Origin: Tetrahymena thermophila SB210
Taxonomy: Eukaryota; Ciliophora; Oligohymenophorea; Hymenostomatida; Tetrahymenidae
NCBI RefSeq assembly: GCF_000189635.1
Contig: NW_002476432.1
Coordinates: 310,001 to 374,000 of the forward strand
Direction of reading: 5' to 3'
Length of the DNA: 64,000 bases
In this document: positions 4,255 through 54,923 of the stretch, piece after piece
Layout: each line of letters opens with the position of its first letter
How positions within the stretch are numbered: the stretch's first letter is position 1
The notes under the pieces: generated by a model
The model's input: the letters and a program-made list of their open reading frames with translations, nothing else
Databases searched by the model: none
What the model was told of the DNA's origin: nothing
Translations under genes and position numbers: made by a program

Positions 4255-4451
4255 CAATCTAAATTTAGGATCCATTTAACCATCAAAATATCTAAATCAT
4301 TGATAAAAAAAATAAATGAAGGTTAAAATAAATATTGATATTTTTAATAATGCTCCTTCTAATGTTCTATTTCTCAGTCTCTATCTAATAGCATTGAATT
4401 AAACAGTCTCTGAAAAATGTCTAAATCTTTTAAAAATTCTATTAATTTCAT
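4255..4451 (-). pseudogene. Array copy 1: N-terminal fragment of the tandem transmembrane protein
   Basis: It starts at ATG 4451 and is closest to the N-terminus of copy 3 (8.6-10.3 kb). It covers the N-terminal segment, TM1 and the MDPKF motif, then stops where repeat R3 begins. Relative to copy 3 a short deletion shifts the frame after codon 13 (a T-run in DIF is shortened), so a TGA follows after about 25 codons. Its 5' flank (to about 4640) also matches that of copy 3. It is a truncated, dead duplicate. Confidence 0.75.
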
Positions 4452-4780
4452 TATTTTTTCTTCTTCTTAATATTATTACCTCTACTTTACTATTATTATT
4501 AAATTACATATAAATCTTAACAACTATTTCAAAAATTTTTAAAAAAATGACTTTATTAAAGTATTAAGGAAATTTAAATAACAATTAAGTAACAAGTACT
4601 GATTAACAATAGTTTTAAAAAAATACTAATACAATTATTGTTATTAATATTATTGGTTCTACTTATTATTCTTGAAAATAAGTAGAAATTAGATAATGAG
4701 ATTGTTTTTATCTTTTTGTTCACAATTTATTCAAATATGCTGTTGATATTCGAAAGGAATTCAGTTTATATATATAACTT
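4452..4780. other. 5' flank of array copy 1
   Basis: It is homologous to the 5' flank of copy 3 (about 10288-10560) and carries no gene of its own. Any promoter it retains would now serve a broken fragment. Confidence 0.5.
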
Positions 4781-7095
4781 TCATTAATTTATTAGTAATG
4801 AAGATAAAATTCTTTTATCTAAGTTATCTAAACTTTAATTGTTGTATTGACATCTTTTTAAAAAGTCATTTATATATTATAATTATAATTCTTTTGATTA
4901 TAACAGTTCATACTACTCTCTGAAGTGATTACCATATTTTTCCTCTTATTTTTGATTATATTGATATAAGGTAAATTTATTTATATTTAAATGCAAATAA
5001 AACAATACCTGTTTAGTTAGTAAGTGCTTTATTTTCCTTGTTTTAGTTTATTATTTCTACATCCATTCCAACAATCTATAAGGCAGCAAATTATTCTTTG
5101 TTTAATAAAATCATAATAGCTTTCTTTAGTAGTAAAATTTCTTTATAAAATGTGAAGAAATCTAAGCTATCATCAACACTCTTTTCAAAATCACTTATTA
5201 TTTTTTATTTTAATCCTTTAGAAGATAGAAATTCCTTTCTTTTGATACACCTATTATTTAAAAAATGATTTATTTTATATCTAATATAAAAAAGTAATCA
5301 AAAAAATTAATTAATAACAATGATAAATTTTGAAAAAATTCAAATATTTTTTTGATTTAAATTTTTGTGTAATTGATGTTTATATTTTATGTATGATATA
5401 CGAATTTAATTTACTTTGGTTTATAGATTATTTATTCAAGTTTTAACTGCATAGATTTATCATTCAACGTTTAAAAGTGCTAATTTAATTGCTTAATAGT
5501 ATAGTTATTATATTTTTTACTTTTTTCTTAAACATTATTAAAATTTGATTAATCTTTATCTATGTTTTCATGTTTACTGAATACATATTGATTCCTTGTT
5601 TAGCTGTTTTTAGAATCTCTCATTTGTTACTAAGGTTGCTGAACTAAATATTTTTTTCTAAATATTTTAGGAGTTTAATCATTTTCATTAAATTTTTAGA
5701 GTTTCATTGGCATTTAAAAGTCAATACCCGAGCTATCTAATTTAATTTATTTGTACAATATTTTATTCTTAACTAATCTAAAAATTTACCTGTTTATTTG
5801 ACTGATGTTACTGTATCTTCTTTTATATAATCTTAATCTGCAATCTCATCATTATTTTATTAAAATACTTTTTAGTTAGATTTTGGTGTTAAATAAGGAA
5901 GAATAGAATTTTTATTATTTTCTTCGGTATCTCCAATACTCTTTTCTTTAACTTATGCATCCTAGAGAATTAGATTTTCTTCAGTTTAAATGCTGGTATC
6001 AACTATTTTATTATGTTCTAAGATATTTAAATATGTTCCTGAAAAAAAATCCTTCATTAAAATAAAAAATATATCTCTTCTGATAATATTCTGTGCAAGC
6101 CTTCTACAATAAGATCCTAAAAGTAGCAATAAGGCTAAAGTACTGTTACAAAGTGCTAAAACCTCTGTAAATATTGGGTATTATATTTTAAAGTAAGTTA
6201 CAGTTTCATCTGAAATAATGATGATTTGACAAAAACATTAAATACCTTTTGCTTATATCATTTAATCGCGGTTATATACTTAACTTTTCAACTAATATGA
6301 ATAGGGTGAAGAAAATTTTTGTTCAGATTAAATTAAAAAACCTTATTTCACTTTAGTTTATTAACTCTATACCCTTATCTCATTATATGAGAAGGTATTT
6401 GCCTAATTAATGAAGGTCTAAGTTCTATATTAATATTCGATTTACTGCGAAGTTGTGTTAAATTAAGAAACTTATATTTTTACATTTAACATAAAAGGTT
6501 CTAGATTAATAAAATTATCTATTGATTGTTAATCTGCACAATTATCAGGAACAAAAGATTTCCATGAATCAACATCTTAGCATCTGAAAAGAAGCAAATT
6601 TATGTAAGAAAAAATTGTGTCATTATTTAATAATACCAAAGCTGCGCTAGGTATTTTACTAAAATCAAAACAATTTAATCCTTTTAATTCTGGATTTTAA
6701 CATTTTATTATATCTAAATATATAATTTCATTCTTTGTACCATTAGTTAGAAGAAAAGCTCCAACAAATACAATATATGTTTTATTTTATTGCTCTTATA
6801 ATTAATTTAAGTATTAACCATTGTAAATATTTAAATAATCAAACCCAAACATTTCATTGTTAACTTAAATATCAATATTTTATGATACATAAGTTTATGA
6901 TATAAATTTAGGATCCATTTATCCAGTGAAATATTGGTAGGATTAATACACAAAATAAATGATAGTTATTAAGATAATTAATAATGTTAAAATTGCACCT
7001 AAAAAAGTCCTTTTTCTGAATTTCTGTCTACTAGAATTGAATTAAACAGGCTCAGAAAATAAGTCTAAACTTTTAAAAAATTCTACTAATTTCAT
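4781..7095 (-). pseudogene. Array copy 2: transmembrane protein with 10-nt frameshift deletion in the tail
   Basis: ATG is at 7095. Exon 1 runs 5415-7095, exon 2 5009-5250 (242 nt) and exon 3 4781-4944, with stop TGA 4781-4783. I translated exon 1: TM1, the four-Cys ectodomain and TM2 are all open. In the tail, 10 nt present in copy 5 are missing around 5752-5762, so the frame runs to TGA at 5704-5706 and predicts a 463-residue product without the C-terminal helical domain. The frame resumes correctly after the lesion, so the break is recent. The remaining tail, both splice sites and the true stop are intact. It could still make a truncated membrane protein. Confidence 0.8.
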
Positions 7096-7919
7096 TGTTT
7101 GCTTTTCTTTTATTCTTTATCTCTACTTTGTTTGCCTATTATCAATTAAATTCTGAATAATTTTTTCCTGTAAAAATTAAATGTCTTTTCTAAATTTAAA
7201 AATCAAGATTGTTTAGGAGTTCATTCAAACAAGCGCAAACTGAATAGCTAAATAATTTAAAGCAAAATGTAGTCATTTAAAAATTTGGAAGTCAAATAAA
7301 AAATTTATGTGTTAGCTAGCGTAAAATGTCATTTCAATTTACAATAAGTGAAATTTAATATTATAATTTATTTAAGATTATTTACAAGCTTTTAGGTGGG
7401 TATTTAAATTTTTTTATTAAAATTCGTACAAATTCATTTGTTTCCAAAAAAAAAACAAATAATACAAAAAAAAAATTTTATTTTAATAATAACCATCAAG
7501 AGTTTTTTTAAATTTCTTCATCAAATAAAAATAATTATGAAAATCTCGTGAAAAAATGAGCAAAATATTTTAAAAAACTGCTGTCAATTTAAGATAAAAA
7601 AAGAAAGTTAAAAACAAAATGAAAAAATTAGAATTTTTAATAGTTTTTAGCATTAAGTAATAAATTTAATTACTTCTCATCTGTAAAATAATTCAACTCT
7701 TAGAGAGAAATATGGTTATTGTTGATGGATTTTTACATTGTTTAAAACTATATTCAATATTTATGTTATTAATTTTAATTTAAAATTTATAAATGTTAAA
7801 GTTATTTATTCGAATTTAAAATATTTAAAAATCTATTATGGTTATTTAATTATATATAATTGAATACAAAAATTTTATGATAAATTTTTTCATTTATTTT
7901 ATAAGATTATTTCTTTCTT
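7096..7919. other. Intergenic region between array copies 2 and 3, with repeat R3
   Basis: No gene is seen. The second copy of repeat R3 lies at about 7437-7592. The first ~100 bp next to 7095 hold the 5' leader of copy 2. Confidence 0.5.
7437..7592. repeat. Repeat R3, copy 2
   Basis: It matches 4100-4245 (see there) and differs by short indels in A/T runs. Here it is flanked by unique AT-rich DNA rather than by a gene fragment, so this is probably the ancestral context. Confidence 0.6.
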
Positions 7920-10287: not shown

Positions 10288-10651
10288 TATTTTTTTACTT
10301 ATTATTATTATCTCTACTTTACTAATATTATTAAATTACATATAAATCTTAACAACTATTTATAAATTTTTTAAAAAAATGACTGTATTAAAGTATTAAG
10401 GAAATTTAAACAACAAGTACTGAATAACAACAAAATAAAAAAATATTAAAACGATAATTAATTGTTAATATTATTGATTCTACTTGTCATTGTTGAAAAT
10501 AAGTAAAATTATGATAATCAAATAATTAATATTCTTTGTTTTCATCTTTTCTTAGTAATTTATTCAAATAAATTATTGATAGTCATAGAGGATTAGTTTA
10601 ATAAAAAATATTTTTTTTTAAAATAATTACTTTATTAAACATAAATAACTT
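10288..10651. other. Intergenic spacer between array copies 3 and 4
   Basis: The first 270 bp are the 5' flank of copy 3, also seen beside fragment copy 1. The rest is AT-rich and appears empty. Confidence 0.45.
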
Positions 10652-12968
10652 TCATTAATATATTAATAATTAAGATAAAATTCTTTATCTAAGTTGTCTA
10701 AACTTTAATTATTGTATTGACATCTTTTTAAAAAATCATTTAAATATTGTAATTGTAATTTTTTTGATTATAACAGTTCATTCTATTCTCTGAAGTGGTT
10801 TCCATATATTTCCTCTTATTTTTGATAATATTGATATAAGATAAATTTATTTATATTTATAAAAGAATAAAACAATACCTGATTAGTTAGTAAGTGTTAT
10901 ATTCTCCTTATTTTAGATTACTATTTCTGCCTCCATTCCAACAATCTATAAGGCAGCAAGTTATTCCTTGTTTAATAAAATCCTAATAGTTTTCTTTAGT
11001 AGTAAAATTTCTTTATAAAATGAAAAGAAATCTAAGCTATTATCAACATTTTTTTCAACTTGACTTATTATTTATTATTTAAATCCTTTAGAAGATAGAA
11101 ATTCCTTTCTTTTAATAAACATATTATTTTAATAATGATTTTTTTATAACTTCTTTTTAAAAAAAATAATAAATTATTAAAGATAATTTATATTAAAGAT
11201 TAACTTTGAAAAAATTCAAATATTTTTTTAGTTAAAATGTTGTATGATTGAGTTATGCTTAATATAGGAGTTTAATTTACTTTGGTTAAAAGAATATTTA
11301 TTCGAGCTTTGACTGCATGGATTTATTATTCAATGCTTAAAAATGCTAATTTAATTGCTTAATTGAATTTTGATACATTTTTTACTTTTTTCTTAAACGC
11401 CAGTAAAATTTAATTAATCTTTATCTATGTTTTCATGCTTACTTAAGATAGATTAATTCCTTTTTAGACTGATTTTGGAATCTTTTAATTGTTACTAAGA
11501 TTGCTGAACTAATTAATTATTTCATTCTAAATATTTTAGGAGTTTAATCATTTTCAATTAATTTTGAGAACTTGAATGTCATATAAAAGTTAATACCTTA
11601 TTTTTCTAATTAAATTTTTTTGTTCAATATTTTATCATCATTTATTCTTAATGAATCTAAAAATTTATCTGTTTATTTGACTGATGCTACAGTATCTTTT
11701 TTTAAATTTTAATTCTCATCATTATTTTATAGAAGTTATTAAAATACTTTTTAGCCAGATTTTGGTGTTAAACAAGGAAGAATAGAATTTTTTTATTTTC
11801 TTCAATATATCCAATACACTTTTCTTTAGTTTTTTCATCCTAAATAAAAAGTTTTTCTAAATTTTAAATGTTGAAATCAACTATTTTATTATGTTCTAAA
11901 ATATTCAAATATGTTTCTGAAAAAAAACTTTCATTAAAATAAAAAATATATCTCTTCTGATAAGATTTTATGCAAGCCTTCTACAATAAGATCCTAAAAG
12001 TAGCAATAAGGCTAGAGTGCTGTTACAAAGTGCTAAAACCTCTGTAAATAAAGAGTATTATATTTTAAAGTAAGTTACACTTTCATCTGAAATAAAGAAG
12101 ACTTGACAAAAATATTAAATACCTTTTGCTTCTATCATTTAATCACGATATATACTTAACTTTTCAAAGAATGCGTATAGGGCGAAGAAAAATTTTGTTC
12201 AGATTGAATTAATAAGCCTTATTACACTTTAGTTTATTAACTCTATACCCTTACCTCATTATAAGAGAAGGTATTTACCTAATTAATGAAGGTCTAAGTT
12301 CTGTATTAATATTCGTTTTACTGTGAAGTTGTGTTAAATTGAGAAACTTATATTTTTACATTTAACATAAAAGGTTCTTGATTAATAAAATTATCTACTG
12401 ATTATTAATCTGCACAATTATCAGGAACAAAAGATTTCCATTGATCAACATCTTAGCATCTATAAACAAGCAAATTTATGTAAGAAAAAATTAAATCGAG
12501 AATTAATAATACCAAAGCTGCGTTAGGTAGTTTACTAAAATTAAAGCAATTTAATCCTTTTAACTCTGGGTTTTAACATATTATATCTAACTATATAATT
12601 TAATTTTTAGTACCATTGGTTAGAAAAAAATTTCCAACAAGTACAATATATGTTTTATTATATTGTTCTTACTTTTAATTTAAGTATTAACCTGTGTAAA
12701 TATTTAAAAAATCAAACGCAAACATTTCATTGTTAACTTTGATATCAATACTTTCTGATATATAAGTTTATGATCTAAATTTAGGGTCCATCTATCCAAT
12801 GAAATATTAATATGATTAATATACAAAATAAATTAAAGTTATAGTAATTATCAATATTGTTAAAAATGCACCTAATGATGCCTTTTTTCTGAATCTTTAT
12901 CTACTAGAATTGAATTAAACAGGCTCAGAAAATAAGTCTAAACCTTTAAAAAATTCTACTAATTTCAT
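10652..12968 (-). pseudogene. Array copy 4: transmembrane protein with several frameshifts and a lost splice acceptor
   Basis: It belongs to the same branch as copies 2 and 5. From ATG 12968 the frame is open through TM1 and most of the ectodomain. A 1-nt deletion near 12145 then produces TGA at 12135-12137 (277 residues). A second 1-nt deletion lies near 11930 in the segment after TM2. At the 3' end of intron 1 the AG acceptor has become AT (plus strand 11121-11122 reads AT where others read CT). Exon 3 lacks one T of a T-run near 10675, which replaces the true C-terminus. The net exon 1 length is divisible as expected, so the shifts partly cancel. This is the most decayed near-full-length copy. 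Confidence 0.82.
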
Positions 12969-13555
12969 AGTTTTTCTTTTATTCTTTATCTCTACTTTAT
13001 TTGTCTATTATCAATTTCAATTTTAATTCTAAATAATTTAACCAGTAAAAATTAAATGTCTTTTCTAAATTTAAAAAATAAAGATTGTTTAGAGTTCACT
13101 CATAAGCACAAATAAGAATATATAAATAATTTATAGCAATATCTACCCATTTCAAAATTAGGAATCCAAAAAATTTTCTGAAAAAACTACATTACATAAA
13201 AAGAACAATTTTGAAGAAATCAAAAATTTGAAGTATAAAGTAGCAAATATATGTGCAAATTCACCTTTTGTACCATTCTAATTAGTTTCTGCAAAAAATT
13301 AATTCACAAATACTTAAAAGTTTTTAAAAAATGATAAAGGAAATTTAAATAACAAGTACAAATACTGACAAGCAATAATATAAAAAAAATACAAACAATT
13401 ATAGTTATTAATATTATTGAATCACTTGTTATTGTTGAAAATAAGTAAAAATAAGATAATGAAATAATTAATGTTATTTGTGTTCCTCTTTTGTTACAAA
13501 TTTATTCAAATAAGCTATTGATAGTCGAAAAGAATTAAATTTATATAAACAACTT
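12969..13555. other. Intergenic spacer between array copies 4 and 5
   Basis: No gene. The stretch 13160-13330 resembles 16060-16220 upstream of copy 5, so the 5' flank was duplicated together with the gene in this branch. Confidence 0.5.
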
Positions 13556-15889
13556 TCATTAATTTATTAGTAATGAAGATAAAATTCTTTTATCTAAATT
13601 ATCTAAACTTTAATTGTTGTATTGACATCTTTTTAAAAAGTCATTTATATATTGTAATTGTAATTCTTTTGATTATAGCAGTTCATACTATTCTCTGAAG
13701 TGGTTTCCATACATCTCGTCTTATTTTTGATAATATTGATATTAGATAAATTTATTTATATTGATAAAAGAATAAAACAATACCTGATTAGTTAGTAAGT
13801 GTTATATTCTCCTTATTTTAATTTATTATTTCTGCATCCATTCCAACAATCTATAATGCAGCAAGTTATTCCTTGTTTAATAAAATCATAACAGCTTTCT
13901 TTAGTAGTAAAATTTCTTTATAAAATGTAAAGAAATCTAAGCTATCATCAATACTCTTTTCAAAATGACTCATTATTTATTATTTCACTCCTTTAGAAAT
14001 TAGAAATTCCTTTCTTTTGATACACCTATGATATAAAAAATGATTTATTTTATATATCTTTTAAAAAAATAATCAAGAAAGATAATTAATAATAATGATT
14101 AAATTTGAAAAAATTCAAATATATTTTTAATTTAAATTTTTTTGTAATTGGTGTTTATATTTTATGTTTGATATACGAATTTAATTTACTTTGGTTAATA
14201 AATTATTTATTCAAGTTTTAACTACATAGATTTATCATTCAACATTTAAAAGTGCTAATTTAATTGCTTAATCGAATATTTATTATATTTATTACTTTTT
14301 TCTTAAACATTAGTAAAATTTGATTAATCTTTATCTATGTTTTCGTTTTTGCTGAATATAGATTAATTCCTTTTGAGACTGGTTTTAGAATCTCTCATCT
14401 GTTACTAGGGTTGCTGAACTATATATTTCTTTCTAAATATTTTAGGAGTTTAATCGTTTTCATTAAATTTCTAGAGTTTTAATGGCATTTAAAATTCAAT
14501 ACCTGAGTTATCTAATTTAATTTATTTATTCAATATTTTATCATCATTTATTCTTAATGAATCGAATAATTTATCTGTTTATTTGAATGAAGATACAGTA
14601 GCTTCTTTTACATAATCTTAATTTGCAATCTCATTATTATTTTATGTAAATTACTAAAACACTTTTTAGCTAGATTTTGGTGTTAAACAAGGAATAATAT
14701 AGTTTTTATTATTCTCTTCGGTATCTCCAATACACTTTTCTTTAGCTTATGCATCCTAGAGAATTAGATTTTCTTCAGTTTAAATGTTGATATCAACTAT
14801 TTTATTATGTTCTAAGATATTTAAATATGTTCCTGAAAAAAAATCCTTCATTAAAATAAAAAATATATCTCTTCTGATAAAATTCTATGCAAGTCTTCTA
14901 CAATAAGATCCTAAAAGTAGCAATAAGGCTAAAGTACTGTTACAAAGTGCTAAGACCTCTGTAAATATTGGATATTATATATTAAAGTAAGTTACGCTTT
15001 CATCTGAAATAAAGAAGACTTAACAAAAATAGTAAAGGCCTTTTGCTTCTATCATTTAATCGCGATTATAAACTTAACTTTTCAACGAATATGAATAGGG
15101 TGAAGAAAATTTTTGTTCAGATTAAATTAAAAACCCTTATTACACTTTAGTTTATTAACTCTATACCCTAACCTCATTATAAGAGAAGGTATTAACTTAA
15201 TTAATGAAGGTCTAAGTTCTATATTAAAATTCGATTTACTGAGAAGTTGTATTAAATTAAGAAACTTATGTTTTAACATTTAACATAAACGGTTCTAGAT
15301 TAATAAAGTTATCTACAGATTATTAATCTGCACAATTATCAGGAACAAAAGATTTCCATTAATCAACATCTTAGCATCTGTAAATAAGCAAATTTATGTA
15401 AGAAAAAATTGTGCTACGATCTAATAATACCAAAGCTGCGCTAGGTACTTTACTAAAATCAAAGCAGTTAAATCCTTCTAATTCTGGGCTTTAACATTTT
15501 ATTACATCTAACTATACAATTTAATTGTTAGTGCCATTGGTTAGAACAAAATATCCAACAAATACTAAGTATGTTTTATTATATTTTTCTTACTTTTAAT
15601 TTAAGTTTTAACCTGTGTAAATATTTAAAAAATCAAACCCAAACATTTCATTGTTAACTTAGATATCAATATTTTATGATACATAAGTTTATGATCTAAA
15701 TTTGGGATCCATTTATCCAGTGAAATATTGGTAGGATTAGTACACAAAATAAATGATGGTTATTAAGATAATTAATAATGTTAAAATTGCACCTAAAAAA
15801 GTCCTTTTTCTGAATCTCTGTCTACTAGAATTGAATTGAACAGGTTCAGAAAATAAGTCTAAACCTTTGAAAAATTCAACTAATTTCAT
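13556..15889 (-). CDS. Array copy 5: two-TM ectodomain protein, 701 aa
   Basis: Exon 1 is 14190-15889, exon 2 13784-14025 and exon 3 13556-13719; stop TGA 13556-13558. I translated the whole of exon 1 and found it open. It is the only intact member of the copy 2/4/5 branch, marked by the exon 1 end IIYQPK and intron 1 donor GTAAATT. The C-terminus is two codons shorter than in copies 6-18. Ectodomain cysteines lie in IKCQSPEL, NCFDF, YRCQDVD and DNCADQQ. TM2 is ALCNSTLALLLLLG. It provides the reference that shows copies 2 and 4 are broken. Confidence 0.87.
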
Positions 15890-22183: not shown

Positions 22184-22570
22184 TCATTTTCTAAGATCAA
22201 AATAAACAAAATTATCTGGATAAATACCATAAATTATTAATAAGTTTTTCACTAGGATAAAGTAAAATGTTATAGTTTAGAAAATTGTTTGAAAGCATGT
22301 ATTTTTCTTCAATTATAGCTAAATACTGTCCAATACAGTTTCTATGTCCTAAAGATAAAGGAGTAAAGTTAAAAGCATTATTTTATCTTTTTATTTTAAA
22401 AATGAACAAACAAATTAATAAAATAAATTTAAATGCTTCAATAAAAGAAGTAATTTTTTTAAGTAAGTTACTCTTATTAATTCATCCCATTTCAAATTTT
22501 ATCAGGATTTGGGTATAAGTTTAGACTGTTTTAGCTGTAGATAATTTGTATATTGACTAAATATTATGAT
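22184..22570 (-). pseudogene. Cytochrome P450 C-terminal fragment
   Basis: It is homologous to the last part of the intact P450 at 57.2-58.9 kb. Reading leftwards it retains the end of the penultimate segment and the whole heme-binding exon. The heme signature is still readable (LSLGHRNCIG, Cys ligand present). A small deletion just before the end shifts the last codons. The upstream parts (oxygen-binding I-helix and ExxR) are absent. At about 22570 the fragment joins a scrap of the array gene. It is dead DNA, probably a by-product of the P450/array shuffling. Confidence 0.75.
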
Positions 22571-22639
22571 CAAAAAAATATTTCACTAATAAGATTTTGA
22601 GCTAGTTTTCTACAAAATGTTCCTGTTACTAAAATATCT
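22571..22639 (-). pseudogene. Scrap of array gene (TM2 region) joined to the P450 fragment
   Basis: The plus strand AAAATATTTCACTAATAAG ... TTTTCTACAAAATGTTCCTG matches copy 3 at about 9255-9320, the sequence encoding TM2 and the following IRR segment. It matches copy 3 better than the neighbouring copies 7 and 8. It is bounded by the P450 fragment on one side and the 56-bp palindrome on the other. Confidence 0.7.
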
Positions 22640-22695
22640 AATCCAGGTTTTAAAATATGATGAACTGGATAGTATTATATTTTAATACCTGGATT
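22640..22695. repeat. 56-bp palindromic element, copy A
   Basis: 19-bp arms AATCCAGG(T)TTTAAAATAT and ATATTTTAATACCTGGATT flank an 18-nt centre. One arm base differs from a perfect match. The same element occurs at 52897-52952 and 56761-56816 in the same setting. Confidence 0.8.
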
Positions 22696-25949: not shown

Positions 25950-28295
25950 TCACTTTTACTAATAATTTAATAAGGAAGATAATATTCTTTTGTCAATTTT
26001 ATCCAAATTTGAACTATTATACTCACATTTTTTTAAGAAATCATAAATATATTATAATTACAATTCTTTTGATTATAGAATTTCGTACTGCTCTTTGAAA
26101 TGATTTTCAGTTGCTTCCTCTTATTTATTTAAAGAAAATCTTTTTAATAAAAAATATAAATCAATAATGAAATTGATAATACCTGATAAATTATTCATCT
26201 TTGAGTTTTCCTAATTTTTACTTTGTTTTTCCAAATCAATTCCAATTACTTATAAAGCAGCAGGTTATTATTTATTTAAAATCATCATAATAGCTTTCTT
26301 TATTAACAAAATTTCTTTATAAAAGGCATTATAATCTAAACTTTCATCTATTTGCTACTCAATTTCACTAAAAATCGATTATTTCAATCCTTTAGATTAT
26401 AAAAACTCTTTTTACTTACACAACCTATCACAATAATAATTTATTAAATTATTTTACTTTAATGATTAAAAGTATATTTGAATAAATATAAATAAATTTT
26501 TTAATTTTTATACTCTAAAATTGAGGTTTCATTCTAAATGATTGATTGAAATAAAAATTGGCTTACTTAAATTAAAAGAGCATCTATTCAAGCTTTAGTT
26601 GAACTGATTTATCATTCAAATTAGAAAATATTTTATTTATTTGCTTATTGTATTTTTAATATTCTTAGTCTACCTTTCTTAAGTTTCTAATTAATTTGAT
26701 TAACTCTTATTCTTTTATCTATTTAACTGTTTAGGGGTTACAGATACTCCGTTTACAAGCTTGCTGCTAGAATCTTTCGTAAATAATTAGAATTATTTTT
26801 GTTATTATTATTATTAAATATTTCTAATTACACTTTGTGCATAATTTTTTTAATTTTGATCAGACTTATTTAAATTTAGTCTAATCTAATAATCTGATTA
26901 TTTATCTAAGTTGGTTTACTTATTTATTATTTTGTCTTAATTAATTCTTAATGATTCTAATAATTCATCTGGTTTTTAAATTTAAGTTTGTAACTCTTCT
27001 AATACTTAGTCTTAACATGTATTTTATGAATCATTATTTAGCTGTTACTAAAATAATTTTTTGCAAGATTTTGGCGTTAAAGATGGAATAAAAATATTTT
27101 TTTTATTGTCTTCATCATAATTACTATTTAATTTTTCTTCAGCTTATTCATCAAGAGCAATTTCATTGCATTAAGTTTAATTATTGAGATTGACAATTTA
27201 ATTATGCTACATAATATGCAAATATGTTCCTGAAAAGAAGTCCTTCATTAAGATCAAAAAAATGTCTCTTCTAATAAATTTTTATGCTAATTTCCTACTA
27301 AACGAGCCTAAAAGCAGTAGAATTGCTAATGTGCTATTACAAAGTGCTAAAACTTCTGTAAAAATTGGAAATTGTATGTAAAAATAGGCTTAACATTCAT
27401 CTGCACCAATTAAAATTTCACTTATACATGCAAGACCAGCGTCTTAAAAAACTTTGTTACGATCATATGTATAAGCGGTGAGTGATTATGATAATGGGGA
27501 TGAAAAAGTTTGTTAATGTTAAACTATCAGACCTTAAAATACTGAAGTAACTTAGTTTTGTATTTTTAACTCATTATACGTGAGAGAATTAGCAGTATTC
27601 GATAATACTTAAATTTTATATTACTACTCAATTTGGCTTGAAGTTATGTTAAATTAAGAAATTTATGTTTTTATTAAGAATTTAAAGGGAGAATAGTTAA
27701 TTAATTAACTTATTGTTTATTCGTCAGCACAATTATCTGGAATTGAAGTCTTAATATAATCAACATCTTGACATTTATAAACATATAATTATATGTAAGA
27801 AAAAATACTTTGATGGTCTTTTAGAACTAGCTGAGGGTTAGGTAATTTGCTAAAATCAAAGCAGTTCATTCCTTGCAATTCTTATCTTTAGCATTTAATT
27901 ATATCTAAAGGTACATTTAAATTGTTGATACTATTATTAGTATTTGTTAATACAAAACTTGCTTTAAAAACAAAATATGTTTTATTTTATTGGGCCTATA
28001 ATTAACTTAAGTATTATCCTTAATAAAGAGAGATAAAATCAAAACCAAACATTTCATTGTTCAAATCAATGTTAATCTAGTTAGAAATGAATGTTTGCTA
28101 TCTGAATTTGGGATCCATCTATCCATTAAAATATAGGTAGGATTAATACACAAAATAAATAAGTGTTATTAAGATAATTGATATTGTTAAAAATGCACCT
28201 AAAAGAGTCCTTTTTCTTAACCTTTATCTATTAGCGTTAAATTAAAAAGACTCAGAGAAAATGTCAAAATCTTTTAAAAATTCGACTACTCTCAT
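25950..28295 (-). pseudogene. Array copy 9: transmembrane protein with late 1-nt frameshift
   Basis: Exon 1 is 26567-28295, exon 2 26183-26424, exon 3 25950-26119; exons 2 and 3 have family-typical lengths and splice sites. Exon 1 is 1 nt short modulo 3. Translation is open through TM1, ectodomain, TM2 and most of the tail. A single base is then missing from a T-run near 26650-26660 and the frame hits TGA at 26616-26618, predicting 559 residues. Only the helical C-terminal domain is lost, so this could be a very recent mutation or a sequencing error in a homopolymer. The shared N-terminus MRVVEFLK groups it with copy 16. Confidence 0.72.
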
Positions 28296-28631: not shown

Positions 28632-30994
28632 TCAATTTTACTCATAAATTAATAAGGAAGATAATATTCTTTAGTCAATATTATCTAAATTTGATCTATT
28701 TTACTCACATTTTTTTAAGAAATCATTAATATAATGTAATTACAATTCTTTTGATTAAAGAATTTCATACTGCTCCTTGAAATGATTTTCAGTTACTTCC
28801 TCTTAATTATTTTAAGTAAATTTTTTTAATAAAAAAAAATAAATGAATTAGATAATACCTGAATAATTCATCATTGAGTTTTCCTAATTTTTACTTTGTT
28901 TTTCTATGTCAATCCCAATTACTTATAATGCAGCAAGTTATTATTTGTTTAAAATCATCATAATAGCTTTTTTTATTAATAAAATTTCTTTATAAAAGGC
29001 ATAATAATCTAAACTTTCATCTATTCGCTGCTCAATTTCACTAATAGTCTATTATTTCAATCCTTTAGATTATAAAAACTCTTTTTTCTTACACAACCTA
29101 TGGCAATAACAATTTATTAAATTATTTTACTTTAATCGTTAAAAGTATATTTGAATGAAGATAAATAAAATAAAGAATATAAATAAAAGTTTTAATTATT
29201 GAAATCAAAAATAGAGGTTTCATTAAATATTACTTACTGATTGAAATAAAAATTGGCTTACTTAAATTAAAAGAGCATCTATTCAAGCTTTAGATGAACT
29301 GATTTATCATTCAAATTTTAAAATACTTTATTTATTTGCTCATTTTATTTTTTAATATTCTTCGTCTCTCTTTCTTAAGTTTCTAACTAATTTGATTAAC
29401 TTATTTTGTTATATCTATTAAAGCGATTAGGTGTTACAGATCCTCCGTTTACAAGCTTATTATTAGAATCTTTCATAAATAATTAGAATTATTGTTGTTA
29501 TTATTGTTATTATTAAATATTTCTAATTCCACTTTGCGCATATTTTTTTAAATTTTGATCAGACTTATTTAAATTTAGTCTAATCTAATAATCTGATTAT
29601 TTATCTAAGTTGGTTTATTTGTTTATTATCTTGTCTTAATTAATTCTTAACGATTCTAAAAAATCATCTGGTTTTTAGATTTAAGTTTTTTACTCTTCTA
29701 AAACTTAGTCTTAACATGTATTTTATGTATCATTGTTTAGTTGTTGTTAAAATAATTTTTTGCAAGATTTTGGTGATAGAGATGGAATAAATATTTCTTT
29801 CTTATTGTCTTCATCATAATTTCTATTGAATTTTTCTTCAGCTTATTCATCATGGACTATTTCACTTTTTTAAGTTTAATTATTGAGATGGAAAATTTTA
29901 TTATGCTACATAATCTGCAAATATGTTCCTGAAAAGAAATCCTTCATTAAGATTAAAAAAATGTCTCTTCTAATAAATTTTTATGCTAATTTCCTACAAA
30001 AAGAGCCTAAAAGCAGTAAAATTGCTAATGTGCTATTACAAAGCGCTAAAACTTCTGTAAAAATTGGAAATTGTATGTTAATATAGGTTTAATTTTCATC
30101 TGCAGCAATTACAATTTCACTTATATTTGCAAGACCTGTGTCTTAAAAATATGTGTTACGATCATAGGTATAAGCGATGAGTGATTATGATAATGGGGAT
30201 GAATAAGTTTGTTAATATTAAGCTATCAGACCTTACTATACTGAAGTAACTGAGTTTTGGATTCTTATCTCATTATGAGTGAGAGAATTAGCAGTATTCG
30301 CGGATAATTAACTTTTATATTACTACTAAATTTGACTTCAAGTTATGTTAAATTAAGAAATCTATGTTCTTATTAAGAGTTTAAAGGGAGAAGAGTTAAT
30401 AAAATAATCTATTGCTTATAAGTCAGCACAATTATCAGGAATATCAGTTTTAATAGAATCAACATCTTAGCATCTATAAATATAAAATTGTATGTAAGAA
30501 AAAATACTTTGATGATCTTTTAGAATTAGCTAAGCATTAGGTATTTTACTAAAATCAAGACAACTCATTCCTTACAATTCTATTCTTTAGCATTTAATTA
30601 TATCTAAAGGTATTATTTAATTGTTGGTACTATTATTAGTATTTGTAAATACATAAACTGCTTTAAAAACAATATATGTTTTATTTTATTGCTCCTATAA
30701 TTAACTTAAGTGTTATCCTGAAAAAAGAGAGGCAAAACCAAAACCAAACATTTCATTATTTAAATCAATATTAACCTGGTTAGGAAGGAAAGATTGCTAT
30801 CTGAATTTTGGATCCATCTATCCAGTAAAAAATTGGTAGGATTAATACACAAAATAAATGAGAGTTATTAAGATAATTGATATTGTTAAAATTGCACCTA
30901 AAACCGTCCTTTTTCTTAACCTTTATCTATTAGCGTTAAACTAAATTGACTCAGAGAAAATGTCAAAATCTTTTAAAAATTCTATCATTTTCAT
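28632..30994 (-). pseudogene. Array copy 10: transmembrane protein with a single nonsense codon in the ectodomain
   Basis: Exon 1 is 29262-30994, exon 2 28859-29097 (239 nt, one codon shorter than usual) and exon 3 28632-28801. Phases are all correct, giving 714 codons. The only defect found is TGA at 30338-30340, codon 219, where other copies have TCA (ACT TCA AG). The sequence continues open beyond it through TM2. If real, the product would be a TM1-anchored 218-residue ectodomain stub. A single base difference could also be an assembly or sequencing error. Confidence 0.72.
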
Positions 30995-31683: not shown

Positions 31684-33115
31684 TTAATTTTACTAATAAA
31701 TTAATAAGGAAGATAATATTCTTTTGTCAATATTATCCAAATTTGATCTATTTTACTCATATTTTTTTAAGAAATCATTAATATTTTATAATTACAATTC
31801 TTTTATTTATAGAATTTCATACTACACTTTGAAATGATTTTCAGTTGCTTCCTCTTATTTATTTTAAGTAAAAAAAAATAAAAAATAAATAAATGAATTA
31901 GATAATACCTGATAAAAATTCATCTTTGAGTTTTCCTAATTTTTACTTTGTTTTTCTATGTGAATTCCAATTACTTATAATGCAGCAAGTTATTATTTAT
32001 TTAAAATCATCATTATAGCTTTCTTAATTAACAAAATTTCTTTATAAAAGGCATAGTAATCTAAACTCTCATCTACTCGCTACTCGATTTCATTAATAAT
32101 CTATTATTTCAATCATTTGGATTATTAAAACTCTTTTTTCTTACAAAACCTATCGCAATAAAAATTTGTTAAATTATTTTACTTTAATCATTAAAAGTAT
32201 ATTTTAATAATGAAGATAAAAATAAAGAATATAAATAAAAGTTAACTCAAAAATTGAGGTTTCATTAAATATTACTTACTGGTTGAAATAAAATTGGCTA
32301 ACTTAAATTAAAAGAGTGTCTATTCAAGCTTTAGATGAACTGATTTATCATTCAAATTTGAAAATATTTTTTTTATTTGCTCATTTTATTTTTTAATTGT
32401 CTTAGTCCCTCTTTCTTAAGTTTCTCATTAATTTATTAACTAGTTTTGTTTTTTCTATTTAAGCTATTAGGGGTTAAAGATACTCCATTTACAAGCTTAT
32501 TACTAGAATCTTTCATCAATAATTATAATTATTGTTATTATTGTATTTATTAAATATTTCTAATTCCACTTTGCGCATAATTTTTTTAATTTTGATCAGA
32601 CTTACTTAAATTTCGTCTAATCTAATAATCTGATTATTTGTCTTAATTACTTCTAAGTGATTCTAAAAAATCATCAGGTTTTTAGATTTAAGTTTGTAAT
32701 TCTTCCAACACGTAGTCTTAACATGTATTTTATGTATCACTGCCAAGCTGTTATTAAAATAATTTTTTGCAAGATTTTGGCGATAAAGATGGAATAAATA
32801 TACTTTTTTTATTGTCTTCATCATAATTACTATTTAATTTTTCTTCAACTTACTCATCATGAATTATTTCAATTGATTAAGTTTAATTATTAAGATTGAC
32901 AATATTATTATGCTACATAATATGCAAATATGTTCCTGAAAAGAAGTCCTTCATTAAGATAAAAAAAATGTCTCTTCTTATAATTTTTTATGCTAATTTC
33001 CTACAAAACAAGTCTAAAAGCAGTAAAATTGCTAATGTGCTATTACAAAGTGCTAAAACTTCTGTAAAAATTGAAAATTGTATGTAAAAGTAGGTTTAAC
33101 TTTCCTACTTATTTT
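31684..33115 (-). pseudogene. Array copy 11: 5'-truncated transmembrane gene (TM1 and ectodomain deleted)
   Basis: Homology starts just before TM2 (TM2 region about 32990-33085) and runs to the C-terminal exon. At about 33100 the sequence passes directly into the 5' flank (CTACTTATTTTTAAATAAAT), so roughly 0.9-1 kb encoding the start codon, TM1 and most of the ectodomain is missing. Exon 2 has lost one base near 31912, and the normal TGA stop has become TAA (Gln) at 31684-31686. No start codon in frame with TM2 is evident. It is a dead copy created by an internal deletion. Confidence 0.8.
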
Positions 33116-39656: not shown

Positions 39657-40241
39657 TTAAATCTCTACTTATTTTTAAATCAATTTTGTTTGCTTTTATT
39701 TTATTAATTAATTTACTAACAATTAAAGAAATTCAAAAGATTAGTTTTTTATATCAAATATTGTCTTTCAACTCAATATTAAAAAAAAACTGTTTGTTAT
39801 CTTTGTTGAAAATAAATTTTAAAAATAGTAAACTCAACACATTTCCTCTTCTGCTAATAATGATAATGAACTGACAGTTAAAAATTAATAAAAATTAGGA
39901 TTTTATTGTTTGTGAGCTTTCTATTAAACCTACAAATTTTATTAGGGTATTATTCATATGCTTAGATGTGTAACACCATTATATAGTTGAAAATACAGAT
40001 TTCAAGCTTTTATTTTCTCTTAAGTTTCCTTTAAACTAAATTCCTTCTAAAAAGTATTTCAGAAGCAGCTGATTTTAAAATGATAATTAAAATAGGGGAA
40101 AAGATTTTAAAAAAATTTTTTAAGCTAAACATATAGTAGTGTGTGTCTTAGAATTTATTATTTAAAAAAATATTATGACAAAACATAAATTATGCAATTT
40201 TACAATATATAATTTTAAATTATATGAGCTAAATTAATTGA
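39657..40241. other. Spacer between array copies 13 and 14 with repeat R1
   Basis: It holds the 5' flank of copy 13 with the conserved upstream block (about 39840-39880) and R1 at about 39894-40148. No R2, and no gene. Confidence 0.5.
39894..40148. repeat. Repeat R1
   Basis: Same landmarks; here AACACCATTATATAGT replaces AACCCCATCATATAGT. It ends AAGCTAAACATATAGTAGTG. Confidence 0.7.
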
Positions 40242-41985
40242 TCAATTTTACTAATAAATTAATAAAGAAGATAATATTCTTTTGTCAATATTATCCAAAT
40301 TTGATCTATTATACTCATTTTTTTTTTTAAATCATTAATATTTATAATTGCAATTCTTTTGATTAAAGAATTTCATACTGCTCCTTGAAGTGATTTTCAG
40401 TTGCTTCCTCTTATTTTAATAAGTATATTTTGTTTAATAAAAAATTATTAATAAATGAATTAGATAATACCTGATAAATAATTCCTCTTTGAATTTTCCT
40501 AATTTTTACTCTGTCTTTCAATATCAATCCCAATTACTTATAATGCAGCCAATTATTATTTATTTAAAATCATCATAATAGCTTTCTTTATTAACAAAAT
40601 TTCTTTATAAAATGCATAATAATCTAAAATTTCATCTACTCACTAGTCAATTTCACTAATAATCTATTATTTCAATCCTTTAGATTATTAAAACTCTTTT
40701 TTCTTACACAACCTATCGCAATAACAATTTATTAAATTATTTTACTTTAATCATTAAAAGTATGTTTGATGAAAGATAAATAAATAAAACAAAGAATATA
40801 AATAAAGTTTTAAATATTGAAATCGAAAATTGAGGTTTCATTAATATTATGAAATAAAAATTGGCTAACTTAAATTAAAAGAGCGTCTATTCAAGCTTTA
40901 GATGAACTGATTTATCATTCAAATTAGAAAATATTTTATTTACTTGCTCATTTTATTTTTTAATATTCTTAGTCTCTCTTTCTTAAGTTTCTAATTAATT
41001 TGATTAACTCATTTTCTTTTTTCTATTTATGCTATTAGGGGTTAAAGACACTCCGTTTACAAGCTTGTTATTAGAATCTTTCATAAATAATTAGAATTAT
41101 TGTTATTATTAAATATTTCTAATTCCACTTTGTGCATATTTTTTTAAATTTTGATCAGACTTATTTAAATTTAGTCTAATTTAATAATCTTATTATTTGT
41201 CTAAGTTGGTTTAATTGTTTATTATGTTGTCTTAATTAATTCTTAATGATTCTAAAAAATCATCTGGTTTTTAGATTTCAGTTTTTAACTCTTCTAACAC
41301 TTAGTATTAACATGTATTTTATGTATCATTGCTAAGCTGTTATTAAAATTATTTTTTGCAAGATTTTGGTGATAAAGATGGAATAAATATGTCTTTTTTA
41401 TTGTCCTCATCATAATTAAATTTTAATTTTTCTTCAACCTATTCACCATGGACTATTTCATTTTATTATGTTTAATTATTGAGATTGACAATTTTATTAT
41501 GCTACATAATCTGTTAATATGTACCTGATAAGAAGTCCTTCATTAAGATCAAAAAAATGTCTCTTCTAATAAATTTTTATGCTAATTTCCTACAAAACGA
41601 GCCTAAAAGTAGTAAAATTGCTAATGTACTATTACAAAGCGCTAAAACTTCTGTAAAAATTGGAAATTGTATGTTAATGTAGGTTTAACTTTCATCTGCA
41701 GCAATTACAATTTAACTTATACTTGCATTACCAGAGTCTTAAAAATATGCATCACAATCATAGGTATAAGTGGTGAGTGAATATGATAATGGGATGAATA
41801 AGTTTATTAACGCTAAGCTATCAGACCTTACTATACTGAAGTAACTTAGTTTTGAATTCTGAATTCATTATATGTGAGACAATTAGCAGTATTGGCGAAT
41901 AATTAAATTTTATATTACTATTAGCGTTAAACTAAATAGACTCAGAGAAAATGTCAAAGTCTTTTAAATATTCTATCATTTTCAT
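40242..41985 (-). pseudogene. Array copy 14: transmembrane gene with internal deletion of TM1 and half the ectodomain
   Basis: The first 22 codons (ATG 41985 ... FNAN) are normal. At about 41919 they join mid-ectodomain sequence out of frame, so TGA follows at 41821-41823 (54 residues). TM2 and tail remain. The intron 1 donor is GTTAGCC rather than GTAAGCC. Exon 3 (40242-40409) is 168 nt instead of 170 because of changes in a T-run. Roughly 0.6 kb is missing compared with copy 12. It is dead, and independent of the copy 11 deletion because the breakpoints differ. Confidence 0.8.
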
Positions 41986-45371: not shown

Positions 45372-45905
45372 TTAAATCTCTACCTATTTTTATGTAAATT
45401 TTGTTTGCTTCTACTTTTTTACTAATTTACTAACAAATTTAAAAATTCTAATGATTAAATAAACAATTATGGCAGTTGAAAATAAATTTAAAAGTAATAA
45501 TAACACAATATATGCTCTCTTTTACAAATAACAATAATAAATTTACTAGTTAAGAAAATTTGAATAAATTCATATATTATAATTGGATTTACTGTATATT
45601 ATTATTTAAACATAATAAAATTTATATGGTATTCTGTCAAATAAAAATTCAGAGAAAAGCCCCTCAATTTTTAATTTCTATTTAATTTTTAAATTTTTCT
45701 TTAAAATGTTTCATATGTACATTAAATTAAATTCAAATTTAATAAATTATTTTAAATATTAAAAACTTTAATCTAACATAATTAATTTTGGCATCATTAT
45801 TTTAGAATAGCTTAGAATTTATTATTTAAAAAAATATTATGACAAAACAAAAATTAAACAATTTTACAATATTTAATTTTAAATTATATGAGCTAAATTA
45901 ATTGA
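45372..45905. other. Intergenic spacer between array copies 15 and 16
   Basis: 5' flank of copy 15 with a degenerate upstream block near 45510-45540. No R1, R2 or gene. Confidence 0.45.
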
Positions 45906-48283: not shown

Positions 48284-48659
48284 TTAAATCTCTACTTATT
48301 TTTATGTCTATTTTGTTTGCTTTTACTTTATTAATTTACTAAGAATTTTAGAAATTTCTAAGTTATTAATTTACTAAGAATTTTAGAAATTTCTAAGTTA
48401 TTAATTTTTTATATTAAATATTGTTTTTCCAAATCAATATTAAAAACTGTTATGATAGTTGAAAATAAATTTTAAAGTCATAAAAAAAGAATATATATAC
48501 TCCCTCTTCTGCAAATAAGGATGGTGAACTAACTAGTTAAGATTTAATAAAATTTGAACAATAGCTTAAAATTTGTTATTTAAAAAAATATTATGATAAA
48601 ACATAAATTATGCAATTTTACAATATATAATTTTAAATTATATGAGCCAAATTATTTGA
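48284..48659. other. Intergenic spacer between array copies 16 and 17
   Basis: A 38-bp direct repeat (TTAATTTACTAAGAATTTTA ... TTTCTAAGTTA) occurs twice in tandem at about 48330-48405. The upstream block is at about 48501-48540. No gene. Confidence 0.5.
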
Positions 48660-51025: not shown

Positions 51026-51465
51026 TTGAATCTCTACTTATTTTTATGTCAATTTTGTTTGCTTTTTTTTTATTAATTAATTTATTAATAATTTCCAAAG
51101 ATTAACTTATAATATAAAATATTGTCTTTCGACTCAATATTAAAAAACTGTTTGCTATCTTAGTTGAAAATAAATTTTAAAATAGTAAAAATACAATATA
51201 CTTCCTCTTCTTCTAATAATATTGATGAACTGACAGTTAACAATTAATAAAAACTTCATTTCGGGCATGCAAAAAAAGTGCAAGGATTCAAGTGTATTTA
51301 ACAGATTTTTAAATTTTACATTATTTATTTTTGAATCAACAAACTAATTTTAGGAATGTGGACTTATTTAAATATAATAGTAAATTTTTTTAAATGTAAA
51401 AAGCAATTTTGAAGCTATTTTCAAAAATTTGATTAATTAATTACAAATATTCTTTAAAGATGAAC
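51026..51465. other. Spacer between array copy 17 and the broken P450
   Basis: 5' flank of copy 17, then sequence shared with 55140-55375 and 57010-57232 (CATGCAAAAAAAGTG, TTTAACAGATTTTTAAATTT). This is the natural 3' flank of the P450 gene. Confidence 0.55.
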
Positions 51466-52813
51466 CCATTTTCTAAGTTCAAAATAAACTAACTAATCTG
51501 GAAAAAAACAATACATTTTTTTTAGTCTTTTTAATAGGTTCTTGACTAGGATTAGGTAAAATGTTGTAATTTAGCAAATAGTTTGTAAGAATACAATTTT
51601 CTTCAATAGCTAAATACTTTCCAATACAGTTTCTAGAGAGAAGGGAGTAAAGTTAAACGCATTTATTTATATTAATAAAATAAATTTAAATGTTTCAACA
51701 ATAATAAGTAATTTTTTTAAGTAAATTATTCTTTTTAATTCATCCATCTATAAAAGTCAAATTTTTCAGGATTTTGGTATAAGTCTGGATTGCTTTGACT
51801 GTAGATAAAATGTGTATTTACTAAATATCCTTTTTTAACCAAAAATTCACCTATCTCTATATCTTTGTTTGCATATCTTCCTAAAACTGCTCTGACGGAG
51901 GAATAAGTCTTTAGGATACTTTCAAAATAGAATGAACCAATAGCATTTAAGAGAGATCTTCGAATGTAAGTGCTTTAAATAAGTCTTATGGGTCTTAGCT
52001 TTAAATTATAGATTTAAGGATATTTATTACTTCATCTCTTGCCTCTTCTTAAATTTTTGAATTTTAGGAAAGATAGTAAAGTGAGACACCTGTCATATTT
52101 CCTATTTTATCAGTTCCTACAAAGATGAGAGCACATAAATTAATAATAATTTCATCTATGATAGTTTCTTTGTTTTCATTCAAAGGGATTTCTTTCAAGT
52201 AGAGGTCTAAGAAATTTCTTATAAATAAGGAAGGATCTTTTTAAAGTTCCTCTTTTCTTTGCATGATAAATTGTTTAAATGTATATTTATATATACATTT
52301 AAATAAGAGAATAAAGTTTTTCTTTTTTCATAGGGAAAATATTCTAACTTTTCCTTTTTAAAATTACATCTTTTAGTAGAAGTAATTTTTTTGTCTAAAG
52401 AATACGGATTGAATCAATAAGCAATTAAACAATTTCTGATGAAAATAAAATAGTACTCCCATCTTCCCTTTTAATAATAATATTCTTAGAATTTTAGCTG
52501 AAAAACGCTCTAAAGGCAACTTCTGAAGTTAATTTTTCACAGATTTTACAACTTGAATCATTTTTTAAGCGCTATTATTTAGATCTTAAGTAATCTCATC
52601 AGAAACTACAAGGCTTACCTCTTTGATTATTGGGAAATCATTTTTTATTTCATCAAAATAGAATGATTTATCCAAAAATGTCTCTATCTCTACTTTTCTT
52701 TACCACTCACACAGAGTAAAGAATTAGAAAACAAAAATACAAATAAATGCTTATGAAATATCCATTTTTAAAAAAGCATCATGATTTTAGTGAACTTATT
52801 TAACAATCTCAGG
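51466..52813 (-). pseudogene. Cytochrome P450 pseudogene, lacks N-terminal region
   Basis: Homologous to codons from about residue 100 to the end of the intact P450 at 57.2-58.9 kb. The missing part is the membrane anchor and first ~100 residues; homology ends near 52813. The heme loop has lost about 7 nt (CTCTAGAAACTGTATTGG against CTAGGGCCCAGAAATTGT), which shifts the frame and removes the Gly/Arg before the Cys ligand. The normal TGA stop is TGG here. The I-helix codes for a degraded AGTD segment. It cannot encode a working enzyme. Confidence 0.8.
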
Positions 52814-52896
52814 ATCTAATCTACTCTTCTTTGATATTTAACATTTCTTCTGTTTAGTTGTTAAAATTTAATCTTGTTATGTTATATTTTATTACT
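52814..52896 (-). pseudogene. Scrap of array gene (tail after TM2) joined to the P450 pseudogene
   Basis: The plus strand ACATTTCTTCTGTTTAGTTG ... AATCTTGTTATGTTATA matches copy 3 at about 9160-9212, the coding region just after the FFSGTYLNI segment. The equivalent piece sits at 56677-56760. Confidence 0.6.
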
Positions 52897-52952
52897 AATC
52901 CAGGTATTAAAATATGATGAACTGGATAGAATTATATTTTAATACCTGGATT
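52897..52952. repeat. 56-bp palindromic element, copy B
   Basis: Perfect 19-bp arms AATCCAGGTATTAAAATAT / ATATTTTAATACCTGGATT around 18 nt (GATGAACTGGATAGAATT). Confidence 0.85.
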
Positions 52953-53216
52953 ATGCTTAATTTTAAATGTAAAAAAATATTTTAAAATATTTATGAAAAA
53001 GTATGTAAAGGCATTCTTCAATAAAATACATAAATTGAATATAATATATAAATATATATAGAGTATAAAAAGAGTTCAAATACAATATTCAATTATTTTT
53101 TCAAAATTTTGAGAGTTTTAACTTAGAATTTATTATTTAAAAAAATATTATGACAAAACATAAATTATGCAATTTTACAATATATAATTTTAAATTATAT
53201 GTGCTAAATTATTTGA

Positions 53217-54923
53217 TCAATTTTACTAATAAATTAATAAAGAAGATAATATTCTTTTGTCAATATTATCCAAATTTGATCTATTATACTCACATTTTTT
53301 TAAAAAATCATGAATATTTTATAATTATAATTCTTTTGATTAAAGAATTTCATACTGCTCCTTGAAGTGATTTTCAGTTGCTTCCTCTTATTTTAATAAG
53401 TATATTTTGTTTAATAAAAAATTATTAATAAACGAATTAGATAATACCTGATAAATAATTCCTCTTTGAATTTTCCTAATTTTTACTCTGTCTTTCAATA
53501 TCAATCCCAATTACTTATAATGCAGCCAGTTATTATTTATTTAAAATCATCATAATAGCTTTCTTCAATAACAAAATTTCTTTATAAAATGAATAATAAT
53601 CTAAACTTTCATCTACTCGCTAGTCAATTTCACTAATAATCTATTATTTCAATCCTTTAGATTATTAAAACTCTTTTTTCTTACACAACCTATCGCAATA
53701 ACAATTTATTAAATTATTTTACTTTAATCATTAAAAGTATGTTTGAAGAAAGATAAATAAATAAAACAAAGAATATAAATAAAAGTTTTAATTATTGAAA
53801 TCAAAAATTGAGGTTTCATTAAATATAACTTACTGATTGAAATAAAAATTGGCTTACTTAAATTAAAATAGCGTCTATTCAAGCTTTAGATGAACTGATT
53901 TATCATTCAAATTTGAAAATATTTGATTTACTTCCTCATTTTATTTTTTAATATTCTTAGTCTCTCTTTCCTAAGTTTCTAATTAATTTGATTAACTCAT
54001 TTTTTTTATGTTTAAGCTTTTAGGGGTTAAAGACACTCCGTTACAAGNNNNNNNNNNNNNNNNNNNNNNNNNNNNNNNNNNNNNNNNNNNNNNNNNNNNN
54101 NNNNNNNNNNNNNNNNNNNNNNNNNNNNNNNNNNNNNNNNNNNNNNNTAAGTTAAAAGACCTTACTACACTGAAGTAACTTAGTTTTGAATTCTGAACTC
54201 ATTATAAGTGAGAGATTTAGCAGTATTCGCGAATATTTAACTTTTATATTACTACTCAATTTTACTTGTAGTTATGTTAAATTAAGAAATTTATGTTTTT
54301 AGTAGGAGTCTATAGGGAGAAGTGTTAATTAACTAATCTATTGTTTATTTTTCAGCACAATTATCTGGAATTTCAGTTTTAATATAATCAACATCTTAGC
54401 ATTTATAAACATATAATTCTATGTAAGAAAAAATATTTTGATGGCCGTTTATAACTAGCTAAGGATTAGATAATTTACTAAAATCAAAGCAGCTCATACC
54501 TTACAATTCTTACCTTTAGCATTAAATTATATCTATAGGTACATATGAATTATTGGTGTTACTAGTTGAATCAGTATATTAAAAAATTGCTTTATAAACA
54601 AAATACGTTTTATTTTATTGAGCCTCTAATTAACTTATGAATTATCCTGAAGAAAGAGAAATAAAATCAAAACCAAACATTTCATTGTTTAAATCAATGC
54701 TAACCTAGCCAGGAAGGAAACTTTGCTATCTGAATTTGGGATCCATCTATCCAGTAAAATATTGGTAGGATTAATACACAAAATAAATTAGAGTTATTAT
54801 GATAATTGATATTGTTAAAATTGCACCTAAAACAGTCCTTTTTCTTAACCTTTATGTATTAGCGTTGAACTAAATAGACTCAGAGAAAATATCAAAGTCT
54901 TTTAAATATTCTAATATTTTCAT
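53217..54923 (-). CDS. Array copy 18: two-TM ectodomain protein, interrupted by assembly gap
   Basis: ATG 54923. The N-terminal half of exon 1 is 54148-54923, a 100-N gap is at 54048-54147, the end of exon 1 is 53868-54047, exon 2 53448-53689 and exon 3 53217-53386 (stop TGA 53217-53219). Outside the gap it is nearly identical to copy 17. By comparison the gap should hide about 750 bp, including TM2 and most of the tail. One base is missing right at the gap edge (CCGTTACAAG against CCGTTTACAAG), most likely low-quality sequence. Integrity therefore cannot be decided. Confidence 0.75.
54048..54147. other. Assembly gap (100 N)
   Basis: Exactly 100 Ns, the conventional placeholder for a gap of unknown size. 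It lies inside exon 1 of array copy 18. Confidence 0.99.

Follow-up and report, generated by a model that had tools for sequence, protein, structure and literature searches.

Organisation of the array

The window analysed here, 64 000 nucleotides of the Tetrahymena thermophila SB210 genome (contig NW_002476432.1, referred to below as C116, positions 310001-374000), carries 18 copies, c01 to c18, of a single membrane-protein gene in an array that extends from position 4186 to position 54923 of the window. The species assignment agrees with the telomerase reverse transcriptase (TERT) of the genome (locus L036): a stretch of it matches T. thermophila TERT (PDB 6d6v) without a difference in two blocks of ~100 and ~135 residues, bounded by presumed splice edges. 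Rfam gave nothing useful for L036. Copies were located by tblastn and rebuilt as spliced models, both under the ciliate code (code 6), in which TAA and TAG are read as glutamine; their starts, as placed by tblastn, are the upper coordinates in Table 1, that of c16 being its ATG (its first BLAST match begins at 10275). All 18 lie on the minus strand. Ten of the spliced models are open from ATG to TGA and encode proteins of 701-716 amino acids (aa), seven copies are broken and one, c01, is interrupted by an assembly gap of 100 N. These counts are the same as those of a preliminary description made from the letters of the window, whose further remark that standard-code gene finders would miss the array is moot, since the code of T. 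thermophila is known; the array genes presumably figure among the putative transmembrane proteins of the public annotation.

Each gene consists of three exons of about 1.7 kb (1700-1739 nt in the intact copies), 242 nt and 164-170 nt, the third being either 164 or 170 nt long when the copy is intact. Exon 2 measures exactly 242 nt in 15 of 17 modelled copies, the others being c08 (241 nt) and c09 (239 nt); c18 lacks it. The two introns of every intact copy fall in phase 2 and then in phase 1, which reproduces the layout and shared phases first reported. The donor of intron 1 reads AA/GTAA (the slash marking the splice point) in every modelled copy but c05 and c08 (15 of 17) and gives phase 2 in all ten intact ones. 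A downstream site of the CA/GTAAGT type was considered as the common donor and rejected, as only some copies have it and several intact ones, c07 and c11 for example, lack it.

Measured from start to start, successive copies are 2.1-3.4 kb apart in 15 of the 17 intervals, roughly the 2.3-3.3 kb given at the outset; the other two intervals measure 3.9 kb, outside that range, and both contain cytochrome P450 remnants (Table 1). As the remnants coincide with both of the long spacings, P450 sequence may formerly have been part of a duplicated segment. For the 15 copies comparable over the part that encodes the ectodomain, DNA identities range from 63% to 97%, which excludes chance similarity. Adjacent paralogues on one strand, with intact and broken members mixed, are what birth and death by tandem duplication leaves behind, and the turnover proposed earlier was thus borne out. 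The lesions are of varied types: c09 has an in-frame TGA, c10 and c17 are frameshifted, c05 and c08 lack stretches, c15 has multiple lesions and c18 is truncated. Sequence errors could account for the lesions of c09, c10 and c17.

A tree built from the close copies (c02-c13) joins c03 to c12 and c04 to c11, a mirrored order within a same-strand array which simple block duplication fails to explain. The latter pair is no longer found in the tree of the 3' half. Strong gene conversion was not found, the 5' and 3' trees being merely partly incongruent.

Protein architecture and similarity to ERGIC receptors

In c12, a first transmembrane segment (TM1, residues ~30-53) is followed by an ectodomain (54-310), a second transmembrane segment (TM2, ~311-333), a linker and a C-terminal coil-like part (581-716). 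Hydropathy peaks at TM1 and TM2 alone in all three copies examined, and both structure models agree with two segments flanking an ectodomain, the layout originally described. Four ectodomain cysteines are invariant in all 15 members of a family alignment.

The Pfam domain ERGIC_N (PF13850) was found at TM1 in each of the four exon-1 array proteins scanned (E 2e-7 to 2e-4; two of the four above the Pfam cut-off) and, at E<0.1, in 14 of the 15 aligned family members. A genome-wide ERGIC_N search gave 11 array places among the matches listed, four of them above cut-off. Composition bias as the source of the match was ruled out: both native N-termini tried were matched (1.4e-8 and 4.1e-8), as against none of eight segment-wise shuffles. 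When the better of the two structure models (mean predicted local distance difference test score, pLDDT, 66) was submitted to Foldseek, the first match, and the only one below 1e-3, was Erv41 (3zlc, E 4.1e-4). Sequence and profile searches of PDB chains gave no useful match (the only PDB match of the profile was a GABA receptor subunit, E 0.26), NCBIfam gave nothing useful, and a viral fold library gave no match below 1e-3. Judged by its N-terminal motif and the better model, the predicted array protein is distantly related to the Erv41/Erv46 (ERGIC2/ERGIC3) receptors, with which it shares ERGIC_N at TM1, two TM segments and a beta-rich ectodomain. The preliminary description, which had called the function unknown, had overlooked this N-terminal similarity; sorting, surface and channel roles are all candidates.

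Three observations weigh against an Erv41-like core and the reading built on it below. By Pfam, COPIIcoated_ERV (PF07970) matches neither the array exon-1 proteins nor the 15 family members, and its only matches in the genome are separate genes on C314, C399 and C81. The tail after TM2 comprises ~370 residues and has a coil-like end, whereas Erv41/46 have a short cytosolic tail bearing a retrieval or export signal. Finally, a second aligner, VIA-align, scores two-pass channels above Erv41. Moreover, no C-terminal dilysine (KKxx), the one signal type examined, was found in any of the ten intact copies, all of which end in INQ or QQN. Because the PF07970 match and KKxx are missing and the tail is long, the array protein is not classed as Erv41/46.

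The same features bear on the strictest reading of the relationship, according to which these proteins are cargo receptors, an expanded set for sorting between endoplasmic reticulum (ER) and Golgi in which each member serves particular secretory or surface proteins. Such a set would account for the ERGIC_N similarity and for the place of Erv41 in the Foldseek search, but it sits poorly with a genome that holds PF07970 in other genes, with the lack of KKxx and with a tail far longer than that of Erv41/46, and we consider it unlikely. PDI-Erv hybrid receptors were discarded as candidates, as the part of PMC4729789 consulted lists no such genes for T. thermophila.

The margin of channels over Erv41 in VIA-align takes weight from an Erv41-like core and adds it to a quite different possibility, namely that the copies encode subunits of two-pass ion channels such as PAC, ASIC and P2X, which are trimers with a beta-rich ectodomain. 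Unlike the relationship to ERGIC receptors, this one has no sequence match to PAC/TMEM206, ASIC/ENaC or P2X channels behind it; the structural alignments are long with a large root-mean-square deviation, and none of the PAC/ASIC/P2X families is among the Pfam matches of the array proteins, the family members or the native N-termini. Channel subunits are thus, in our estimate, a long way from probable.

A family of clusters across the genome

The preliminary description had treated the array as a single locus. An isolated locus is ruled out: in the 101 Mb genome (445 contigs), the union of five whole-genome protein searches placed the family at no fewer than 194 positions on 56 contigs. This figure was compiled by hand and is a lower bound, the searches having scored the best 73 of 382, 104 of 386, 114 of 379, 109 of 384 and 116 of 394 candidates. 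Taking neighbours within 15 kb as clustered, 161 of the at least 194 places fall in 39 clusters of two or more and 33 are single; the array in the window is hence one of at least 39 clusters. Strand is shared within every one of the 122 neighbouring pairs of the genome-wide list. By size the array ranks first among the clusters found, followed by those with 14 (C165), 10 (C81), 9 (C100) and 9 (C265) copies. On C100, a contig of 42.6 kb, the nine same-strand copies (10298-41115) occupy most of the contig and perhaps lie near a chromosome end.

Tandem arrays are common in T. thermophila, as far as the parts of PMC6564038 and PMC2691746 consulted go. The largest strict tandem inparalogue cluster that PMC6564038, seen in part, gives across ten Tetrahymena species has 17 genes, though its cluster criteria differ from ours, so that 18 against 17 gives no ranking. 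That cluster is from T. pyriformis. The leucine-rich-repeat clusters of the paper resemble the present array in being tandem clusters of young, fast-evolving genes and differ from it in protein family; the portion of the paper at hand does not mention the array family.

Selection on the array and on other clusters

Had the copies no protein function, the ratio of nonsynonymous to synonymous substitution (dN/dS) should lie near 1 for all of them; by the Nei-Gojobori method it was 0.25-0.55 in all 45 pairs of intact copies. Among the eight close intact copies, regional values were 0.48 for the ectodomain, 0.48 for the linker, 0.26 for TM1, 0.20 for TM2 and 0.19 for the coil, and in the C-terminal half of the ectodomain dN roughly matched dS for several copy pairs. 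Codon models were run, without recombination being modelled, on eight of the ten intact copies (c14 and c16 were excluded as too divergent), using custom code with branch lengths scaled from M0. A class with omega >1 was favoured for the whole gene (M1a/M2a p 0.003, M8a/M8 p 1e-4) and for the ectodomain alone with its own tree (p 0.014 and 6e-4 respectively), and the linker plus coil gave a weak signal (0.14 and 0.008). A naive empirical Bayes posterior above 0.9 was reached at 22 sites, of which 17 are in the ectodomain, four in the linker and one next to the membrane at TM2; as the ectodomain makes up 257 of the 712 codons, its share of the fast sites is an excess (hypergeometric 8e-5). The array copies are therefore under purifying selection overall, with an excess of fast ectodomain sites. 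In a poor structure model, the site pairs 113/115 and 169/171 alternate along predicted strands, a pattern that would fit exposed strand faces.

This constraint bears on the possibility that the array is a mostly neutral outcome of recombination in a region prone to it, most of its copies being unexpressed. Seven broken copies out of 18 would agree with such an origin, as would the finding, in the consulted part of PMC2691746, that T. thermophila P450 genes with many paralogues are mostly silent or low-expressed. Set against this are the dN/dS values of all 45 pairs, the ten intact frames and the constrained TM2 and coil, and we think a neutral origin very improbable.

Seven sets drawn from other clusters were analysed in the same way: nine of nine C100 copies plus one from C431, eight of nine from C265 (in two sets), four of five from C94 (L079 excluded), five of 14 from C165, four of five from C115 and four of five from C78; loci L041-L045 and L047-L056 took no part. 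The four close copies of C94 (594170-608158) have a fast ectodomain (omega 0.63, M8a/M8 p 5e-4), five sets gave no signal, their ectodomains being conserved (M0 omega 0.07-0.21), and the C165 set was uninterpretable. Power was limited in those sets with dS near or above 1; among the sets with dS well below 1, C94 was positive, and C78 and C265a were negative. With C94 positive and five sets without signal, diversification looks array-specific rather than common to the whole family.

A variable-surface role had been suggested at first, and it may be put more generally as receptors at the cell surface or on cilia that would recognise prey, mates or chemical cues and have diversified by tandem duplication, and whose coiled tail would serve signalling or clustering. 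The fast ectodomain sites beside a conserved TM2 and coil in the array, together with the fast ectodomain of C94, are what such receptors might be expected to display, but conservation in five sets is not what an arms race of antigens or receptors typically produces. The variable-surface role is not supported as a description, and surface receptors in the wider sense are held to be a doubtful alternative. The immobilization antigens of Tetrahymena and Ichthyophthirius, as presented in the parts of PMC3341644 and PMC4136848 consulted, are likewise multigene families of surface proteins, those of Ichthyophthirius lying in tandem arrays with pseudogenes. In contrast to the array protein, with its two TM segments and four invariant ectodomain cysteines, these antigens are cysteine-rich and linked to glycosylphosphatidylinositol (GPI). 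The hydrophobic C-terminus that signals a GPI anchor in Ser/i-antigens was missing by hydropathy from all three copies examined, and their periodic cysteine repeats were not found in these copies, which have 8-11 cysteines in total per 700 residues.

Features of the array and neighbouring genes

Table 1. Copies of the membrane-protein gene and P450 remnants, in window positions
Feature	Position	Strand	Remarks
c01, assembly-gapped	53217-54923	-	N 54048-54147; 97% identity to c02 (comparable ectodomain-coding DNA)
Cytochrome P450 remnant, c01/c02 interval	51717-52819	-	
c02, intact, 710 aa	48660-51025	-	exons 51025-49305, 49132-48891, 48829-48660
c03, intact, 714 aa	45906-48283	-	exons 48283-46551, 46382-46141, 46075-45906
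c04, intact, 710 aa	43011-45371	-	
c05, broken	40240-41985 (low end approximate)	-	~residue 22 to ~223 deleted; further lesions
c06, intact, 709 aa	37305-39656	-	exons 39656-37939, 37784-37543, 37474-37305
c07, intact, 703 aa	33983-36307	-	
c08, broken	31684-33104 (low end approximate)	-	without 5' half (TM1, most of ectodomain); further lesions
c09, broken	28632-30994	-	in-frame TGA in ectodomain
c10, broken	25950-28295 (low end approximate)	-	late exon-1 frameshift
c11, intact, 712 aa	23266-25624	-	
Weak cytochrome P450 remnant, c11/c12 interval	22444-22665	-	41% over 81 columns, E 1e-7
c12, intact, 716 aa	19365-21736	-	
c13, intact, 710 aa	16541-18886	-	
c14, intact, 701 aa, divergent subgroup	13556-15889	-	first sequence of better structure model
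c15, broken	10639-12968 (low end approximate)	-	frame lesions; altered intron-1 acceptor
c16, intact, 712 aa	7920-10287	-	most divergent of the intact copies
c17, broken	4781-7095 (low end approximate)	-	exon-1 frameshift
c18, N-terminal fragment alone	4186-4451	-	leftmost copy

To the right of the array lies a P450 gene (57483-58910, Pfam E 6e-51) with a broken P450 copy beside it (55575-56675), and together with the remnants inside the array these form a second small tandem family. The next open frame to the left (1446-3116) is unrelated to the array family by code-6 tblastn and has no significant Pfam match. Further to the right are three minus-strand 5S rRNA genes ~250 nt apart (60070-60691), a plus-strand tRNA-Leu(UAA) gene (61028-61110) and a tandem of FKBP-type peptidyl-prolyl isomerase genes (61717-62064, called by Pfam; ~62800-63204 and the start of locus L038, called by similarity of their translations). 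Left of the window, C116 carries two tandem peptidyl-arginine/agmatine deiminase-like genes, L037:4349-5440 (PAD_porph E 5e-98) and 6293-7504 (recognised by eye).

Discussion

The explanation we favour, with moderate confidence, is that of a two-pass family with an ERGIC/Erv41-like core, whose ectodomain binds ligand or cargo and diversifies by tandem duplication. The N-terminus would probably be cytosolic, TM1 would lie within the ERGIC_N motif, the beta-rich ectodomain with its invariant cysteines would face the lumen or the outside, and TM2 would cross back, leaving a Q/N-rich linker and the conserved coil-like end in the cytosol. The ectodomain would most likely bind ligands, which may be secretory-pathway cargo or molecules met at a surface membrane; the tail may couple or cluster the protein. 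Unequal crossing-over would create and break copies, while selection would hold the membrane parts and the coil constant as some ectodomain positions diversify.

A bolder proposal, which we put forward only tentatively and think improbable as a whole, is that an ERGIC-fold superfamily of some hundreds of members once served in sorting and has since become a diversified set of ligand-binding receptors whose cytosolic tails are coiled. The array in the window and C94 would then be separate bouts of ectodomain diversification, sister arrays having stayed conserved. Through this fold, cargo receptors and two-pass channels would be connected.

Among the best-ranked open-licence literature we found no paper on the array family, nor its ERGIC relationship, its scale or its array-specific diversification, which does not imply absence from print; the part of PMC5182062 consulted names no such family.

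The array itself preserves a natural record of how tandem copies are born and lost. Beyond it, the family suggests that a single genome can come to hold an ERGIC-type core at 194 places or more, and the arrays with fast ectodomains, those of the window and of C94, set beside the arrays without them would offer a direct test of ectodomain ligands. A relationship and a testable biochemistry are thereby given to a large, uncharacterised family of membrane proteins in a model ciliate.

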